Assembly: GCF_007747215.1 (NCBI RefSeq)
Contig: NZ_CP036273.1
Coordinates: 558,001 to 622,000, forward strand
Source of the DNA: Urbifossiella limnaea
GTDB lineage: Bacteria; Planctomycetota; Planctomycetia; Gemmatales; Gemmataceae
Direction of reading: 5' to 3'
DNA length: 64,000 bases
Part shown: positions 10,128-60,772 of the stretch, one piece after another
How positions within the stretch are numbered: the stretch's first letter is position 1
Layout of the letters: each line of letters begins with the position of its first letter
Notes under the pieces: generated by a model
Seen by the model: the letters and a program-made list of their open reading frames with translations, nothing else
Databases searched by the model: none
Told to the model about the DNA's origin: nothing
Made by a program: the position numbers and the translations under genes

Positions 10128-11443
10128 GGATCTGGTCCTCAACTACTTCCCGAATTCATGCGGTTTGGGGTAGGGCTCGGTAGTTCCATTTCGGGAGGTA
10201 GTCGTCGAAGGCGATCTTCATGCTCGTCCGGAACCCTTCGACGTACTTCCGACCGGTGGCGTACACCTTGTCCAGTAGGCTCACGGTCACCCGCAGGCCG
10301 GCGTCCGTCCTCGCCCGGGCGATGAATTGCCGGGCGACCTCCACGGTGTGGAAGATCACGCCCCGACACGCCCGCGTGATGTGCGGGAACACCTTGTGCT
10401 CGATCGGATTGTGCTTCGAGCAGTACGGCGGGTAATGGGCCACCCGGAGTTCGATCGCCAGTCGGTCCGCCAGGCGTTGCAGGTCCTCCTGGAACAGGTA
10501 CTGGGTGGCACTGTTGCTGCCGCCGCCGTCGCACAGGATCAATAACCGCTTCGCGTCCGGGTAGGCGGCACGGCCGTGCTCGTGCCACCACAGCGCGATG
10601 CTGTCGCAGCACAGTTCGCCGGTGTCGTGCGACGTGTTGAGGTGGATGGACGCGTGGTTGCGGGCCACGTCGAAGATGCCGTGGGGGATCAGCTTGCCGG
10701 ACCCGGCCCGGGGGAAGTCGTGGTCGAAGGTCTCCACCGTCTGGGACGTATACGTCTCCCCGCCGCGGTGGAAGTTCCCCAGCAGTTCCTTCTTCTTCGT
10801 GCCCACGCTGATCACCGGGTCGCCGGCCGCCTCGTACCCCCGCCGGAGGTCCGCGATGTTCTCGAACTGGGCGTTCCGGTCGGGGTGGTGGCCCATCGAC
10901 TTCTTCTTGCGGGCCGTCCGGCGGCCGATCTGGAGGGCCCGCAACGCCCGCCGGATCGTCCGGCGACCGGCCGGGGTGCCCATCGCCGCCAACCGCCGCG
11001 ACAGTTCCCGCAGCGACAGGTTGGTCCAGAGTACGCCGTCCCGCATCGGGTCCCCGGCGGTGAACTCCGGGAGCAGGTGCCGGAGGTTGTCGCCGAGGGA
11101 CGGTCGGGCCGCCATCAGCGGGCGACGTCCGCCCCCTTTTTTCGGACCCGGCCGTCGGCCGGGTCGTCGGGTTGTTCCAGATCCTGCAGGCCTTGTCGGA
11201 TGGTCTTCGGATCGCAGGCCAGCAGGCGGGCGATGTATTCGACGCCGCCGTGCCCGAGTTTCGCCGCTTCGACGGCGGCGTACCGGCGGCGGTCCTTCTC
11301 GGACAACCAGCCCGCCAGCCGCTTCATCATCGCCTCGACTTCCGCCGGATAGGCGTCCATGCCCGCCTCCCGAAATCGCGTTCGCCAGGCCCGAGATTCT
11401 ACCCGCCATCAACGAAACCGGGAACTTGAAGTGGGCCAGATCC
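10128..11443. mobile_element. ISAzo13-type insertion sequence
   Basis: About 1.3 kb with ends GGATCTGG (10128-10135) and its complement CCAGATCC (11436-11443). The inverted repeat continues inward through a shared TTCCCG block. The right tip (11431-11443) was used as target by the IS4-type element, so the same 13 bases appear again at 12940-12952, and the genomic flank resumes only after that. The outside flanks are complementary (GCGGCTTA left, TAAGCCGC right), so the element either inserted in a small hairpin or has slightly longer ends. Confidence 0.85.
10156..11360 (-). CDS. ISAzo13 family transposase, made by -1 frameshift
   Basis: The first frame starts at ATG 11360 (MDAYPAEVEAMMKRLAGWLS) and stops at 11115; the catalytic frame ends at 10156. 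They join at A AAA AAG on the minus strand (11142-11136), a classic -1 slippery heptamer in the right phase. The joined product is about 401 residues. The catalytic half carries HGIFDVARNHASIHL, ILCDGGGSNSATQYLF and HYPPYCSKHNPIEHKVFPH, the D-D-E landmarks of this family. Confidence 0.85.
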
Positions 11444-16522: not shown

Positions 16523-16548
16523 CCGGGCGCCGGGTCACGAAGACATTT

Positions 16549-16640
16549 TTAGACCGGATAACAGGATGAACGGGATACCGAACCAGGACCACGGCTCGGG
16601 GCTTGGCTCGGTATCCCGTTCATCCTGTTATCCGGTCTAA
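16549..16640. repeat. Long inverted repeat, 36-bp arms
   Basis: Arms 16549-16584 and 16605-16640 match at 35 of 36 positions around a 20-base loop. The core words are ATAACAGGATGAACGGGAT. It lies between the convergent stops of rho (16522) and the ABC permease (16672). It shares the ACAGGATGAA word with the element at 51489-51592. Confidence 0.9.
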
Positions 16641-16671
16641 ACTCCGGTTGCCGGGACTTTCCGGTGCTCCA

Positions 16672-19370: not shown

Positions 19371-19497
19371 GGGACTGTGGGACTGTGGGACTGTGGGACG
19401 GCGGGACACAGGGACACAGGGACCGAGAAGCGTAGGGATGTCTTTCTCCCTGCGTCCCTCAGTCCCCCCGGCCCTCAGTCCCACAAACCGGTCCGTC
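19371..19497. repeat. Imperfect inverted repeat of 'GGGACTGT / GGGACACA' words
   Basis: The left part (19371-19423) is tandem GGGACTGT units followed by GGGACACAGGGACACAGGGA. The right part (about 19447-19492) holds the complementary words (TCCCTGCGTCCCTCAGTCCC). The left 20-mer is repeated in the element at 59931-60009. The right arm supplies the last codons and stop of the ABC ATPase gene. Confidence 0.8.
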
Positions 19498-20170: not shown

Positions 20171-20711
20171 CGTCATTCGTCATTCGTCATTCGTCATTCG
20201 TCATTCGTCATTCGGCCGGCGCTATTCCGGCGTATCCGGCGGGGGGGCGTCGGCGCTCGGGTTGGTTTGGCCGATCGAGCGGAGGTAGCCGTTCAGGAGC
20301 GGGGCGAGCCGCTCGACCAAAAGCTGAACCCGCTCGACCTGCTCCGGGGCGAGGAGCTTACGCTTGAACGCCCGGCGGAGCCAGTGTTGCGTTTCGTACA
20401 GCGACCCGCGGGCGATCCGCACGAACCGGCGGTTGTCCTGGTAGCTCCCGCGGCCCGAGCCCTCGGCGATGTTCGCCCCGACGCTGTCGGCCGCACGCAC
20501 CATCTGCTTGCCGACCGTGTCCCGCGCCAGCAGCGGCCACCCCCCCACGATCGACCACAACTCGTCGGCCAGCTGCTCGGCGACCTGGTACACGGTCAGG
20601 TCTTGAAACCGCTTGGTCGACACGGCCGTGCCCTCTCACGTCGTCGGCTCTCGAACGTCAACCTCCGTCGAATCACCCACCCGAATGACGAATGACCAAT
20701 GACGATTGACG
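20171..20711. mobile_element. Candidate four-helix-bundle cassette 1, with terminal inverted repeats
   Basis: The left end is six exact tandem copies of CGTCATT (20171-20212). The right end is four units of the complement (AATGACG, AATGACC, AATGACG, ATTGACG; 20684-20711). Between them lies only the S23-type gene and its leader. The right end stops 3 bp before the ettA stop codon and the left begins 10 bp before the ATPase start. The same layout with different repeat words occurs at 47768-48252. Mobility is inferred, not shown. Confidence 0.55.
20222..20623 (-). CDS. Four-helix-bundle protein of the 23S rRNA intervening-sequence (S23) family
   Basis: 133 residues from a GTG with GAGAGGG upstream. 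The family signature is RAADSVGANIAEGSGRGSYQ, preceded by FQDLTVYQVAEQLADELW and followed by RFVRIARGSLYETQHWLRRA. The fold is an all-alpha bundle that forms pentamers in known relatives (also Avd of diversity-generating retroelements). Members were first found inside intervening sequences of 23S rRNA in Leptospira and Coxiella; their biochemical role is not settled. The C-terminus is a Pro/Asp tail. It is bracketed by inverted repeats and is unrelated in function to its neighbours. Confidence 0.85.
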   Translation of the reverse strand: MSTKRFQDLTVYQVAEQLADELWSIVGGWPLLARDTVGKQMVRAADSVGANIAEGSGRGSYQDNRRFVRIARGSLYETQHWLRRAFKRKLLAPEQVERVQLLVERLAPLLNGYLRSIGQTNPSADAPPPDTPE

Positions 20712-20714
20712 ACC

Positions 20715-22382: not shown

Positions 22383-22490
22383 GACATCCCCTGCGGTGCC
22401 GACGGAACCCGTTCGGGAATTGTACGGGCGGCGCGCGACCCCGGAAGGCACACCCCCGCCCCCGGCGTTGCCGGCGGGTCGGAGCGATCA

Positions 22491-22561
22491 GCCGTTCGGC
22501 CGGGGCGCAAGCCCCGTGGAATGTCTACTCCCCGACACGGCTTGCGCCCCGGCCGAACGGC
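22491..22561. repeat. Inverted repeat with GGCCGGGGCGCAAGCC core
   Basis: The arm 22491-22518 and the complementary arm 22536-22561 pair with a 2-base bulge. The core GGCCGGGGCGCAAGCCCCGT is identical to the core of the palindrome inside the E2 gene at 36761-36838. It lies in the ~325-bp gap between the divergent ettA and sahH genes, upstream of the riboswitch. Confidence 0.85.
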
Positions 22562-22707
22562 TGGCCGACATTCGCAGGCACGCCCCGACCCGCCGAACGG
22601 ACTGGACGCCGACCTCCACCGGTGACTATTCTTTATCGGTGGGTCCGCCACGCGATTCGGCCGCCCTGCCTCCGAGGTCTGCCTAGAGCCGACGAAGTCC
22701 GAACCAC

Positions 22708-36474: not shown

Positions 36475-37650
36475 GTGTCGATTCCCGTGACGGTGCCGCG
36501 CCTCGGCTGGAACATGGAGGAGGGCACGTTCGTCGAGTGGGTGGCGGCCGACGGCGCGGCCGTGAAGCCCGGCGACGTGCTGTTCCGGCTGGAGGGCGAC
36601 AAGGCGGTCGAGGAGGTGGAGAGCCTGGACGCCGGCGTGCTGCGCTACCGTGCGACTGGCCCGAAGCCCGGCGACCGCGTGAAGGTCGGCGACGTGATCG
36701 CCGAGCTGGCGGGGGCGGGTAAGGCTCCACCGACACAACCGCCGGTTGTCCCGGACGAACCGTTAGGCCGGGGCGCAAGCCCCGTCGGTTCTTCCGACGC
36801 CGCGTGCACCCCGACGGGGCTTGCGCCCCGGCCTAACGACACGCCCGCACTCCCCGCGGTCACGCCCCGCGCCCGTCGGCTGGCGGCGCGGGTCGGCGTC
36901 GATCCCACGCAACTCCCCGGCACCGGCCGCACCGGCCGCGTCCGCGAGCGCGACATCCCCGCGCCGGCGCCGACCGGCGTCGAGCCACTCTCGCCGGTCC
37001 GCCGCGCGACCGCGGCGCGGATGGTGGAAAGCCTCCGCGCCGCCGCCCCCGTCACGCTCACGAGTTCGATCGACGCCACGAACCTGGTTAACCTCCGTGC
37101 CCAGTTCAAGGCCGCCGGCGCCGCGGTGCCGACCGTCACCGACCTGCTGCTGAAGCTCGTCGCCGTCGCGATCGGGAAGCACCCGGCGCTCGCCGCCCGC
37201 TGGACCGACGCCGGCCTCGCCCCGGCCGAGCGGCTCGACATCGGCTTCGCCGTGGACACGCCCGCCGGGCTACTCGTGCCGGTGGTGCGCGACGTGCCGG
37301 CGCTCGGGCTGGCGGCGCTCGCCGCCCGCACCCGCGAGCTGGTCGAGCGCGCCCGCCGCGGCGCCCTCGCCGCCGCCGACCTGCGCGGCGGCTGCTTCAC
37401 CATCACCAACCTCGGCGCGTTCGGCGTGGACGCCTTCACGCCGATCATCAACCCGCCGGAGTCGGCGGTGCTGGGCGTCGGCCGCATCGCCCGGCGGCCG
37501 GTGATGGACGGCGACCGCGTGACCGGCCGCGAGCAGCTGACGCTGAGCCTGACCTTCGACCACCGCGTCGTGGACGGCGCGCCCGCGGCGAGGTTCCTCC
37601 AGGCGCTCGCCGGGTGTATCGAGAACCCCGCCCCGTGGCTGACGGCCTGA
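36475..37650 (+). CDS. Dihydrolipoamide acyltransferase E2
   Basis: 391 residues from a GTG. Lipoyl domain (about 1-80) with the lipoylated lysine in EGDKAVEEVES, peripheral-subunit-binding domain (about 120-160; ARRLAARVGVDPTQLPGTGR), and catalytic domain ending in DHRVVDGAPAARFLQAL with the active-site His and Asp. The linker between the first two domains (about 95-122) is encoded by a 78-bp palindromic repeat and reads PLGRGASPVG ... TPTGLAPRPN. No E3 gene is nearby; E3 must come from elsewhere. Confidence 0.93.
   Translation: MSIPVTVPRLGWNMEEGTFVEWVAADGAAVKPGDVLFRLEGDKAVEEVESLDAGVLRYRATGPKPGDRVKVGDVIAELAGAGKAPPTQPPVVPDEPLGRGASPVGSSDAACTPTGLAPRPNDTPALPAVTPRARRLAARVGVDPTQLPGTGRTGRVRERDIPAPAPTGVEPLSPVRRATAARMVESLRAAAPVTLTSSIDATNLVNLRAQFKAAGAAVPTVTDLLLKLVAVAIGKHPALAARWTDAGLAPAERLDIGFAVDTPAGLLVPVVRDVPALGLAALAARTRELVERARRGALAAADLRGGCFTITNLGAFGVDAFTPIINPPESAVLGVGRIARRPVMDGDRVTGREQLTLSLTFDHRVVDGAPAARFLQALAGCIENPAPWLTA
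36761..36838. repeat. Palindromic repeat inside the E2 coding sequence
   Basis: Perfect 28-bp arms (36761-36788 and 36811-36838) around a 22-base loop. The core GGCCGGGGCGCAAGCCCCGT is shared with the intergenic repeat at 22491-22561. Its length is a multiple of three, so the E2 frame is kept and the insert falls in a flexible linker. Confidence 0.95.
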
Positions 37651-47078: not shown

Positions 47079-47809
47079 CCGGGCTGCTCCACGATCGGGT
47101 TGCGCAACACGCCGAGATGTTCGATTTCGAGCTCCACCACGTCGCCGGGTTTCAGCCAGCCGCCGACCGCCTCGGGCGTCAGTTCCAGGATGCAGCCGGT
47201 GCCGACGGTGCCGCTGCCGAGCACGTCGCCGGGGCGGAGGTCGGCGTCGCGGCTGGCGTGGGCCAGCAACTGCGGCCACGTCCAGTACATACTGCCGGCG
47301 TCGCCGCGGCTGTACTCCTTTCCGTTCACCCGGGCCGTCATCGTCAGGTGGAGGCGGCCGTCGCGGTAGTACGGCTGCAATGCGGTGAACGGCACGAGGC
47401 CAGGGCCGAGGGACGTGGCGAAGTCCTTGCTCTTGCTCGGGCCGAGGCCCACCGCCATCTCGGCCCGCTGGAGGTCGCGGGCGCTCCAGTCGTTCATGAT
47501 GGTGAAGCCGGCGACGCACGCCAGCGCCGCGTCATCCGCCGGCAGGTTCCGCGCCGCGGTGCCGATCACGCACGCCAGCTCCAGCTCGTAGTCGAGGGCC
47601 GCGCTGCCGGCGGGCGCGCACACCGGGTCGCCGTCGCCGACGACCGCGGCCGGGTTCGAGAAGTAGAAGACGGGCACGTCGTACCACTGGGGCACCATCC
47701 CGAGCCCGCGGTGCGCCCGGCACGTCTTCACGTGCTGCTCGAACGCATAAAAGTCCCTGATGGAGCGGATCGATGATCGAAGATCGAGGATTGATGATTG
47801 AGAAGACAT
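47075..47809 (-). CDS. Fumarylacetoacetate hydrolase family protein
   Basis: 244 residues as read from ATG 47809. The FAH fold is seen in VPVFYFSNPAAVVGDGDPVC, the metal ligands in LDYELELACVIG, and MNDWSARDLQRAEM, SKDFATSLGPGLVP. It would cleave fumarylacetoacetate to fumarate and acetoacetate, the last step of tyrosine breakdown. The first ~14 residues (MSSQSSILDLRSSI) are encoded by the terminal repeat of the four-helix-bundle cassette, so the true or ancestral start was altered by that insertion. Confidence 0.85.
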   Translation of the reverse strand: MSSQSSILDLRSSIRSIRDFYAFEQHVKTCRAHRGLGMVPQWYDVPVFYFSNPAAVVGDGDPVCAPAGSAALDYELELACVIGTAARNLPADDAALACVAGFTIMNDWSARDLQRAEMAVGLGPSKSKDFATSLGPGLVPFTALQPYYRDGRLHLTMTARVNGKEYSRGDAGSMYWTWPQLLAHASRDADLRPGDVLGSGTVGTGCILELTPEAVGGWLKPGDVVELEIEHLGVLRNPIVEQPG

Positions 47810-48252
47810 GACGCGGTTACGCTCCCGGCTTGGCGTCGCGGCTGCGGCGGACGGCCGTGGCCCGGGAGGCAGACATGATGCGGAGGAGTTCGTTCGCTTC
47901 GGCCAAGAGGGGCTGAACGAGCTCGGACTTGTGCAGGTTCCCGTCGATGACCAGTTCGAGCCAGAACGCGCTCTCGTCGGCCTCCTCGATCACGACGCCC
48001 ATCTTGGCGACGAACTCCTTCCGCGACCGCGCCCGGCACGCGGCCCGGTAGTTGGCTCCCACCGAGGTGCCCGATCGCATCAACTGGTTGGCGACCGCCC
48101 GCCCCTGCACCGTCCCCGGCAGCGCGGCGGTGAGCCTCATGACGCGCAGGGCGAACTGCTTCGTCCGGTTCTGAAGCTCAGCCCGGTCCATCGTGTCGCC
48201 CCCACCGACCTTGTCTTCCCAATCATCAATCCTCGATCACCAATCATCAATC
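47768..48252. mobile_element. Candidate four-helix-bundle cassette 2, with terminal inverted repeats
   Basis: The 35-bp ends (47768-47802 and complement of 48218-48252) match at about 30 positions and are built of GAT/GATT words (GATCGAGGATTGATGATTG shared exactly). Between them is only the S23-type gene. The right end overlaps the hppD stop codon; the left end provides the start of the FAH gene. It thus sits inside an otherwise tightly packed operon. Same architecture as 20171-20711 but with different repeat words. Confidence 0.6.
47817..48191 (-). CDS. Four-helix-bundle protein of the S23 family
   Basis: 124 residues. Family signature: ANQLMRSGTSVGANYRAACR followed by RSRKEFVAKMGVVIEEADES and AFWLELVIDG. 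The C-terminus is basic (SRATAVRRSRDAKPGA). It differs clearly from the copy at 20222-20623 (motif SVGANYRA versus SVGANIAEGSGR), so these are two subfamilies, not a recent duplicate. It lies between hppD and the FAH gene with no pathway connection and is enclosed by inverted repeats. Confidence 0.85.
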   Translation of the reverse strand: MDRAELQNRTKQFALRVMRLTAALPGTVQGRAVANQLMRSGTSVGANYRAACRARSRKEFVAKMGVVIEEADESAFWLELVIDGNLHKSELVQPLLAEANELLRIMSASRATAVRRSRDAKPGA

Positions 48253-49364: not shown

Positions 49365-49492
49365 GAAGACGGATTGGCCGCAAAAAGGCACAAAAGACAC
49401 AAAAAGGACAGAATTCAAAACCGGGTTCTTGTCTGACTATCTTGTCTGTCCTTTTTGTGTCTTTTGTGCCTTTTTGCGGCCAATCCGTCTTC
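49365..49492. repeat. Long inverted repeat with perfect 47-bp arms
   Basis: Arms 49365-49411 and 49446-49492 are exact complements around a 34-base loop. The words are AAAAAGGCACAAAAGACACA and the complement. It is AT-rich against its surroundings and fills most of the space between phhA (stop 49503) and the hppD start (49351). RNA from the operon would fold it into a very stable stem. Confidence 0.95.
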
Positions 49493-51488: not shown

Positions 51489-51592
51489 TTTTTGACGAGA
51501 TGAACAGGATGAAACAGGATTAGAACCGGGCCTGAATTAATACAGAACTCTGATTCTTCCATCCTGTTTCATCCTGTTCATCCCGTCAAAAA
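51489..51592. repeat. Inverted repeat with 32-bp arms, ACAGGATGAA type
   Basis: Arms 51489-51520 and 51561-51592 match at 31 of 32 positions; loop 40 bases. Words: GATGAACAGGATGAAACAGG. The same ACAGGATGAA word is in the repeat at 16549-16640. It starts 9 bp after the quinone reductase stop. Confidence 0.92.
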
Positions 51593-56219: not shown

Positions 56220-56349
56220 ATTAACCACAGAGTCACAGAGGGCACAGAGAGGAAACCGAAGACAGAGTGAAACCCGGATTTGGTTTCAAACCCGGCTTCG
56301 TTCTCGGATTTCTGTCTTCTCTCGGTGTCCTCTGTGACTCTGTGGTTAA
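56220..56349. repeat. Inverted repeat of 'CACAGAG' words
   Basis: The left arm from 56220 (ATTAACCACAGAGTCACAGA GG...) pairs with the right arm 56310-56349 with one short indel. It fills the space between the PPC-domain gene and the WD40 gene. Similar CACAGAG-type repeats are, to my knowledge, common between genes in many bacteria. Confidence 0.88.
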
Positions 56350-56368
56350 TCTTGGATTTTGTGTCTCT

Positions 56369-59915: not shown

Positions 59916-59930
59916 GACCGTGGGACGGGG

Positions 59931-60009
59931 GGACACAGGGACACAGGGACCGGTGGCGTGAACCACCTGTTTTCTCCCTGTGTCCGTCAGTCCCTGTGTC
60001 CCTGTGTCC
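59931..60009. repeat. Inverted repeat of 'GGACACAGGGACACAGGGAC'
   Basis: 20-bp arms at 59931-59950 and 59990-60009 are exact complements, with another partial unit near 59975-59986. The same 20-mer occurs in the element at 19371-19497. It lies between sodA and the membrane protein gene at 60022. Confidence 0.9.
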
Positions 60010-60021
60010 TCGGAGAATCCC

Positions 60022-60690
60022 ATGCTCGCCCTGTTCGGCGTCGACGTGAACCCCGACGACGTGGTCAACGAGACCACCAAGCGCGTCATCGTCACCGTCA
60101 TCGTCGCGGCGATCACCTCGACGGCCACGTTCTTCGCCGGCCGGTGGTACGGCCGGTACGTCGCCGGCCGGCAGTGGCACAGCAAGGAGTTCCTCGACCG
60201 CATCATCATCAGCCTCAACATTTTCTCCGACGGCTACCTGAAGATCCGCACCGTCATGGAGCGCTCCATCGAGGAGGTGTTCCTCAACCGCCTCGCCGTC
60301 GAGAAGGTGAACGCCGCGGCCCGCGCCACGACGGTCGAGAACCCCATCATGCCGATCGCCAAGGCCGACCGCTGGTTCATCCTGAACTTCGTCCTGAACG
60401 CCGTCGCCGAGCACTTCGTGGACGGCCAGATTCGGCTGGACGCGGGCCAGCCGGTGACGAAGGTGCGGTACGCGCTGTTCCTGACGTGCGAGCTGGTCGG
60501 CGAGGAGCGGATCCGCAAGGTGCGGGCGATGCTGGTGCGGGCCGACGTGCTGGAGGCGTTCCCGTACCCGGACTCGCTGCCGAAGCTGGAGAACGTCTGG
60601 CACGACAACCGCGTCCTGACGCTCCGCAAGGCCGCGGCGCTGTACAAGACGGAGCCCGACCACTTCCTCACGCTTGAAGTTTGTGTGTAG
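60022..60690 (+). CDS. Membrane-anchored protein, function unknown
   Basis: 222 residues from ATG 60022 (MLALFGVDVNPDDVVNETTK); the longer frame from 59980 begins in the repeat. One membrane segment (about 22-45, RVIVTVIVAAITSTATFFAG). The rest is a soluble alpha/beta region with RIIISLNIFSDGYLKIRTVM and DRWFILNFVLNAVAEHF. I recognise no family. The TAG stop's last base is the first base of the following palindrome. Confidence 0.6.
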   Translation: MLALFGVDVNPDDVVNETTKRVIVTVIVAAITSTATFFAGRWYGRYVAGRQWHSKEFLDRIIISLNIFSDGYLKIRTVMERSIEEVFLNRLAVEKVNAAARATTVENPIMPIAKADRWFILNFVLNAVAEHFVDGQIRLDAGQPVTKVRYALFLTCELVGEERIRKVRAMLVRADVLEAFPYPDSLPKLENVWHDNRVLTLRKAAALYKTEPDHFLTLEVCV

Positions 60691-60772
60691 GCGAACCGGC
60701 GGCGTCTGCCGCCGGGTGGCGCCGCGTATCACATCCACGTCCCCACCCGGCGGCTGACGCCGCCGGTTCGCC
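60690..60772. repeat. Inverted repeat with 30-bp arms touching a stop codon
   Basis: Arms 60690-60719 and 60743-60772 match at 29 of 30 positions, loop 23. The word is GGCGAACCGGCGGCGTCTGC. It fills the space between 60690 and the next start at 60784. Confidence 0.95.

Follow-up and report, generated by a model that had tools for sequence, protein, structure and literature searches.

The short tandemly repeated repetitive (STRR) heptamers of cyanobacteria have been described as direct repeats without a gene. Direct repeats of the heptamer TAACTGA, for which a regulatory role was proposed, are reported from Beggiatoaceae, Cyanobacteria and Bacteroidetes in PMC4679880. In the intervening sequences (IVS) of 23S rRNA genes, as presented in PMC4990558, a protein-coding gene lies within a hairpin: the terminal inverted repeats of the Coxiella IVS form a 28-bp stem, and the gene for the intervening-sequence protein (IVP) lies in the loop. 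The same paper describes the distribution of these IVS as sporadic, and their mobility as long suspected and unexplained. REP palindromes, according to PMC3733652, are 20-40 bp long and tagged GTAG or CGTC at one end.

The window analysed here is a stretch of 64,000 nucleotides of the Urbifossiella limnaea genome (hereafter G000; window = G000:C1:558001-622000), and it contains two gene-less hairpins built from the word ACAGGAT (Table 1). With a probability of about 0.72, they are gene-less miniature members of hairpin elements that carry a gene for a GxxExxY protein, the word being recognised by the element's own protein. The full plan of such an element is a word array, a small gene and an inverted word array. 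In class I, a GxxExxY gene (PD-(D/E)XK family) stands between words spaced with a period of 8-11 (ACAGGAT, CACGGAT, CGCAGAT, CACAGAG, CGCAAAG, CACGAAG, CACAAAA); in class II, an IVP gene encoding a four-helix bundle stands between mostly pure tandem heptamers. Hairpins with arms built from one short word, the fuller ones with a small gene in the loop, apparently form a large undescribed family, and a search of the open-access literature returned no paper containing the words or tying GxxExxY or IVP genes to such hairpins.

Class II has the hairpin and the IVP gene in its loop in common with 23S rRNA IVS bearing an S23/IVP ORF, as portrayed for Coxiella and Leptospira. The word hairpins differ in lying between protein genes, whereas IVS lie in rRNA helices (an Rfam search of the window found no rRNA), and also in their tandem-word arms, their second class with an unrelated nuclease gene and their abundant gene-less copies. 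The STRR repeats, likened here by description, share the tandem heptamers, which stand as inverted arms at 8 of 9 cyanobacterial plasmid IVP loci; a link between STRR and IVP was not found in the open-access literature searched. TAACTGA repeats are likewise intergenic heptamers of distant lineages, but they are direct, with one inverted case (PMC4679880). REP/REPIN sequences with their RAYT are also small intergenic hairpins with a partner gene and within-genome families. Nevertheless, the RAYT partner, a Y1 HUH protein, is encoded outside the hairpin, and in G000 the REP arms are aperiodic and belong to separate families.

Table 1. Word hairpins and gene-bearing hairpin elements of the window (positions counted from its first base).
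Feature	Position	Strand	Remarks
Gene-less ACAGGAT word hairpin	16548..16641	.	class I, GxxExxY-type word; inner module CCGAACC
Gene-less word hairpin	19376..19485	.	TGTGGGAC/GGGACACA
Left arm, first IVP element	20177..20215	.	heptamer (TCGTCATT)n = AATGACG inverted
IVP gene P0001, in loop	20222..20623	-	four helix bundle, TIGR02436/PF05635
Right arm, first IVP element	20681..20712	.	
Left arm, second IVP element	47768..47808	.	heptamers GATCGAN/GATTGAN
IVP gene P0002, in loop	47817..48191	-	
Right arm, second IVP element	48212..48252	.	
Gene-less class I hairpin	49365..49492	.	word CACAAAAAG, matching arms of GxxExxY gene L315 elsewhere in G000
Second gene-less ACAGGAT word hairpin	51489..51592	.	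class I
Gene-less class I hairpin	56220..56350	.	word CACAGAG
Gene-less word hairpin	59923..60009	.	GGACACAG

The first ACAGGAT hairpin lies directly 3' of a rho gene and has arms at 16548-16590 and 16599-16641 (43 nt, 93% complementary); the second is flanked by two + strand genes in our own gene calls, with arms at 51489-51520 and 51561-51592 (32 nt, 97% complementary). Folded as single-stranded DNA, they reach -47.1/-45.8 kcal/mol (z -14.9/-14.0) and -33.4/-35.7 kcal/mol (z -10.3/-10.8), respectively, and for each, 0/200 shuffles were as good. The preliminary description, which placed the first at 16549-16640, was thus right in calling both near-perfect inverted repeats. Their lengths do differ, as it stated, although partly through unequal loops, and the arms can be aligned with 1-base indels. 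It had also proposed that both are built from the same word, and the counts agree: ACAGGATGAA occurs 11 times in the window with at most one mismatch (0.8 expected), and 72 times exactly in the 7.80-Mb genome, against 2 for the reversed control word. Of the 72 copies, 52 are paired at distances below 500 bases, and each of the 26 pairs is ordered + then - (inward); the remaining 20 copies are single, several of them within coding sequence. The same word occurs 17 to 157 times in five congeners, and 3 to 29 times in the other 53 relatives searched.

An 864-kb stretch of G000 around the window holds 132 long hairpins (score at least 18), against 0 in one second-order Markov copy. Clustering these by k-mer content, the check that had been suggested, gave 14 clusters of at least three members, in which word families emerge beside REP-like ones. 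The periodic families include AATGACG, GTGAAGGG, CACAAAAAG, CACAGAG, GGGAGTCGTT and others; GTTAGGCCGGGGCGCAAGCCCCG and GGCGAGCGGCCCGCG are among the aperiodic, REP-like hairpin families of G000. The clusters are imperfectly clean, one of 16 members mixing ACAGGAT with GAGGGATG and AAGGATG, and the 'word' class demands an exact period, so that elements with 1-base indels, such as the hairpin at 16548-16641, are missed. By our own gene calls, 39 of the 44 periodic word hairpins in this stretch are intergenic. Purines predominate in the 5' arm of 43 of these 44 (mean 0.73, by symmetry on either strand), compared with only 0.56 in REP-like hairpins. The window has REP-like hairpins at 22489-22563, 36761-36838 and 60690-60772, whose kinds are also found beside RAYT-type genes of G000. 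It further contains an SAH riboswitch (RF01057; 22708-22796, + strand; 49.5 bits, above the gathering score). A structure with inverted ends CAGGCCATTCACGGTG and a loop of ~1466 bases, found at 11442 to ~12941 of the window (G000:569442), at G000:290205 and at G000:741235, is perhaps one insertion sequence in three copies.

Within G000, 24 collected ACAGGAT hairpins fit one consensus, (GAAGAG)TTTTGACAGGATAACAGGATGAAGCAGGATG, mostly followed by CCGAACC or GAAGACAAAGACAGAAATCAATTTAAA. The idea of a family defined by words and not by a consensus is therefore not supported in that form for the ACAGGAT copies inside this genome, and holds across phyla. Its converse, a single ancestral element with ordinary divergence, is half right: there is one consensus, but the arms differ by 12% between copies and by 1.8% within a copy (14/787 cells in shared columns; this value is biased low, since the finder cuts an arm off where a mismatch occurs), and many positions of the 24-copy alignment have changed on both sides. 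The consensus ends, TTTTGACAGG.../...CCTGTCAAAA, appear untagged by eye, and a minority of copies, including 51489-51592, read GACG/CGTC there.

The main omission of the preliminary description is the genes in the loops. G000 holds 3 PF13366 (GxxExxY nuclease) and 7 PF05635 (IVP) genes, and 9 of these 10 lie between inverted word arms with scores of 20 to 33, each with another word; the tenth, L318, has no arms of score 12 or more. The GxxExxY arm words are ACAGGAT, CGCAAAG/CACCAAG and CACAAAAAG, and those of the six IVP genes found in the loop of a stem-loop (6/7, class II) are TGAAGGGG, AATGACG, GGGAGTCGTT, AGGGATG, GATTGAN and AAGGATG. Two ACAGGAT pairs, ~380 and ~430 bp apart, each have an ORF inside. 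One of these ORFs encodes a GxxExxY protein (PF13366, TIGR04256; E 5e-40 for TIGR04256), with the gene at 6072557-6072895 and the arms at G000:6072520-6072952, and CACAAAAAG arms enclose a GxxExxY gene at G000:6314329. The gene-less ACAGGAT and CACAAAAAG hairpins have the same termini as these gene-bearing relatives, which is the MITE-like relationship. The other, at L025 (G000:1099962-1100345), is an ORF of ~92-116 residues with cysteine pairs in the loop of an ACAGGAT hairpin; a search with 92 of its residues gave no NCBIfam match, and it is perhaps a third cargo of word hairpins.

In the window, a match to the solved structure 2gsc was obtained for the IVP P0001 (E 1.5e-7), and the word of the P0001 element (20177-20712) is oriented outward, contrary to the rule. 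All five IVP genes of the 864-kb stretch have arms of score at least 16, compared with 1/218 other genes of up to 700 bp (p 1e-9), the exception being a RAYT gene between its REPs. When the same stretch was searched, without regard to gene identity, for 16-mers inverted across loops of 150-1500 bp, 47 pairs were returned, including all five IVP elements. Inverted AATGACG arrays at G000:914526 have an 878-bp loop enclosing a gene that is presumably smpB.

The same anatomy recurs in other genomes. Thirty-six distinct genomes were searched, 35 obtained via the ACAGGAT pattern (the relative G001 included) plus G003; G074, the same assembly as G001, was dropped. PF13366 was found in 30/36, compared with 69/148 genomes drawn from the window's phylum (window genome excluded; p 7e-5), and gave no match in G003, the isolate Thiobaca trueperi (G071) and four MAGs. 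For the best match per genome (loci that are not random draws, some of them related), arms of score at least 14 flank 25/29 GxxExxY and 20/28 IVP loci, or 24/28 (p 6e-27) and 20/27 (p 3e-21), respectively, when both flanks reach 200 bases, against 4/261 control ORFs of 250-650 bp. On named plasmids, 4/8 GxxExxY loci are armed, as are 8/9 IVP loci of cyanobacteria (Nostoc, Calothrix, Aulosira, Anabaena, Pseudanabaena galeata), among which two pairs are near-duplicates and Pseudanabaena PCC 7367 is the single armless locus. In the pooled sets of 40 GxxExxY and 44 IVP loci, which retain those with shorter flanks, arms of score at least 14 are absent from 8 and 10, respectively.

The two classes differ in their arms. 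Among pooled loci, a period of 7 occurs in 30/33 IVP loci (the other 3/33 have other periods) vs. 0/31 GxxExxY loci (p 3e-15), and at least two class I words occur in 28/32 GxxExxY arms vs. 0/34 IVP arms; GxxExxY genes thus go with spaced words of period 8-11, and IVP genes with mostly pure tandem heptamers. On both sides, the arm-to-gene distance is mostly ~10-120 nt, and up to 244 nt. At L390 and L391, on cyanobacterial plasmids of two genera, a heptamer-armed IVP gene lies between cas6 and cas4 of a CRISPR locus, and at L398, on a Sphingomonas parapaucimobilis plasmid, a CGCGAAG-armed GxxExxY gene lies between fabD and fabG.

PF13366 is named PDDEXK_3, and the PD-(D/E)XK motif is present in the aligned GxxExxY rows: of the 40 rows, 37-40 retain E, Y, D, ExK and QxxxY, and 37-39 retain the E, D, ExK and QxxxY of the motif, with one row (L315) misread at that step. 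We take the E, D, ExK, QxxxY pattern to be that of RecB-like PD-(D/E)XK nucleases. PF05635, in turn, resembles the DGR accessory protein Avd, according to PMC10053308. In the tree of the 40 GxxExxY proteins, a single split is well supported (97/98); it separates 7/7 loci with GAT-ending words (ACAGGAT, CACGGAT and others) from 23/23 loci with AAG/GAG-ending words, and requires one change. Host kinship does not explain this split, as a Planctomycetota MAG, a Bacteroidota isolate and proteobacterial MAGs stand together on the GAT side. The result was replicated on 30 new GxxExxY loci from the window's phylum with unchanged word labels, which had been written after the first set was seen. Arms of score at least 14, with periods 8 to 10, were found at 25 of these loci and were missing at five; 6 new GAT and 15 new AAG/GAG loci fell on the expected sides, bringing the totals to 13 and 38, still with one change. 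Two labels are weak, each resting on one matching word: that of L393, on the AAG/GAG side, whose visible word is GGACTGAAGAA, and that of L413, on the GAT side, with a score of 14. IVP loci with higher protein identity tend to have more similar words (Mantel r 0.31, p 0.0002, n = 32 loci, two near-duplicate plasmid loci being removed for this test only and kept among the 44).

The preliminary description was correct in stating that similar words occur in other phyla. A two-word inverted ACAGGAT pattern with free spacers occurs in at least 119 stretches of GTDB genomes, from bacteria and archaea, for a chance expectation that we infer by rough arithmetic to be ~1e-4. The 80 record titles listed include Proteobacteria, Planctomycetes, Chloroflexi, Acidobacteria, Bacteroidota, Verrucomicrobia, Chlamydiota, Elusimicrobiota and Hydrogenedentota, and, among the archaea, Methanoperedens and ANME-2. 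Across phyla, the 7-base word is retained and the 2-base spacers drift. In 127 such hairpins, 55% of the spacer bases pair vs. 38% when shuffled; the spacers do pair, but far below a stem kept solely for pairing. A shared transposase, sought in the flanks of 130 ACAGGAT loci (within at most 8 kb for genomes and 15 kb for viral contigs), was not apparent among the 14 largest protein clusters, the top ones being an ATPase family (9 loci) and kinases (8 loci). One locus, L125:67-617, consists of five head-to-tail units of 112 bases, with a complete ACAGGAT hairpin in each.

Presence and absence vary at orthologous sites. The relative G005 shares the IVP element at 47768-48252, with drifted GATTNNN arms; the site leaves no room for it in G004 (138 bp) or in G002 (319 bp), and is taken by other DNA in G001. 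The gene junctions 603532 and 608394 are tight in G000 and hairpin-filled in relatives, with REP-like hairpins included. At slot 49365, the four relatives with both flanks each carry a hairpin of a different class I word (three found by program, that of G004 by eye), and in G001, an ACAGGAT hairpin lies next to an apparent remnant. The ACAGGAT-GxxExxY element occupies the same site in G000 and G001, and was therefore inherited there, its arms having changed more than its gene. Hairpin slots do not coincide significantly between species (14 in both, 12 in G000 only, 7 in the other only, 15 in neither; p 0.15), and slot conservation was accordingly rejected as a functional proof. Among these relatives, ~70-92% alike, no clean empty site with a readable target duplication was found, and no transposition event was observed.

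The strongest rival, which we nonetheless hold to be unlikely, is that the hairpins are independent and pre-existing, both genes being parasites that home into the loops, with the protein following the word. Gene-less word hairpins far outnumber gene-bearing ones (44 in 864 kb, compared with 10 genes in 7.8 Mb), the long word arrays at L393 and L390 could serve as targets, and the fit between word and clade would equally follow from target specificity. Homing sits badly with arms that are near the gene on both sides, mostly within the same ~10-120 nt and up to 244, with an IVP element that differs as a whole between species, and with the fact that, among the loci seen, neither protein class was found with the words of the other. 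Elements that carry their own gene, with gene-less derivatives, are the preferred reading.

A selected role as transcription terminators or mRNA 3'-end protectors, with the word likeness secondary, is improbable as the whole explanation. Word hairpins of G000 do begin at a median of 8 nt past stop codons (41/43 distances of at most 36 nt, own gene calls), their 5' arms are purine-rich (43/44), and the gap at 937126 is almost purely hairpin in both G000 and G001, with different words. Despite this strong closeness to 3' ends in G000, the terminator reading was rejected, as divergent gaps are not significantly avoided (5/39 vs. 96/458, p 0.30) and the U-run is absent, T-runs lying 5' and A-runs 3' of both window stems on both strands. 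Elsewhere, ACAGGAT hairpins lie in divergent gaps in 20/85 vs. 95/485 cases (p 0.38), a count from which 26 of the 127 hairpins placed against ORFs are excluded for lying within called ORFs and 16 for lying at contig edges. Termination also leaves unexplained the loop genes and the words common to archaea and bacteria, although an added terminator role may exist at some sites. As for mobilisation of the word hairpins as classical REP elements by a RAYT (Y1 HUH) transposase, G000 does have RAYT-type genes and REP-like hairpins; yet 3/3 Y1_Tnp genes are flanked by aperiodic REP-like families and 0/3 by word hairpins within ~1.5 kb, and the partner gene of the word hairpins lies inside the loop, not between separate hairpins. 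Rejected by this gene neighbourhood, RAYT mobilisation is very improbable and largely refuted for G000, with its 3 Y1_Tnp genes, which, for this genome, bears out the original remark that the word hairpins are unlike classical REP elements.

For the gene-bearing elements and their miniature derivatives, a working scheme can be proposed from sequence comparisons, from which we infer both the mobility and the recognition of the word. The protein would bind its own word in one or both arms, probably in hairpin form (ssDNA, DNA or RNA), and would help its own element, as well as gene-less derivatives in trans, into new intergenic sites. GxxExxY may supply the nicking or cutting that opens the target or the element, and IVP, as a relative of Avd, may be the nucleic-acid-binding partner of some polymerase, as Avd is with the DGR reverse transcriptase. 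We propose that pairing and words are both kept because both arms are recognised. RNase III may cut the stem from RNA, as in the 23S rRNA IVS, and the likeness to these suggests excision from mRNAs, which could render insertions beside stop codons or within operons harmless. As hairpin elements with a partner protein, the word hairpins stand nearest to IVS, and, in their putative working, nearest to REP/RAYT.

In a broader and more tentative reading, to which we give somewhat less than even odds, these elements would constitute a new superfamily of mobile hairpins of bacteria and archaea, in which a one-gene protein, either a RecB-like nuclease or an Avd-like bundle, reads a short word that is the element's whole identity. 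Protein and word would co-diversify into many word 'languages', of which the cyanobacterial heptamer repeats and the 23S rRNA IVS would be branches. The preferred explanation gives the intergenic word repeats of bacteria and archaea a home and a candidate partner, and gives context to protein families annotated just as 'GxxExxY protein' and 'four helix bundle / S23'. The spread of 23S rRNA IVS and the nature of the cyanobacterial heptamer repeats become directly testable, as a prediction of the DNA word to be bound follows from each protein subclade. If word reading by the proteins is real, they would represent compact hairpin-binding proteins or nucleases, with the word set by the clade.
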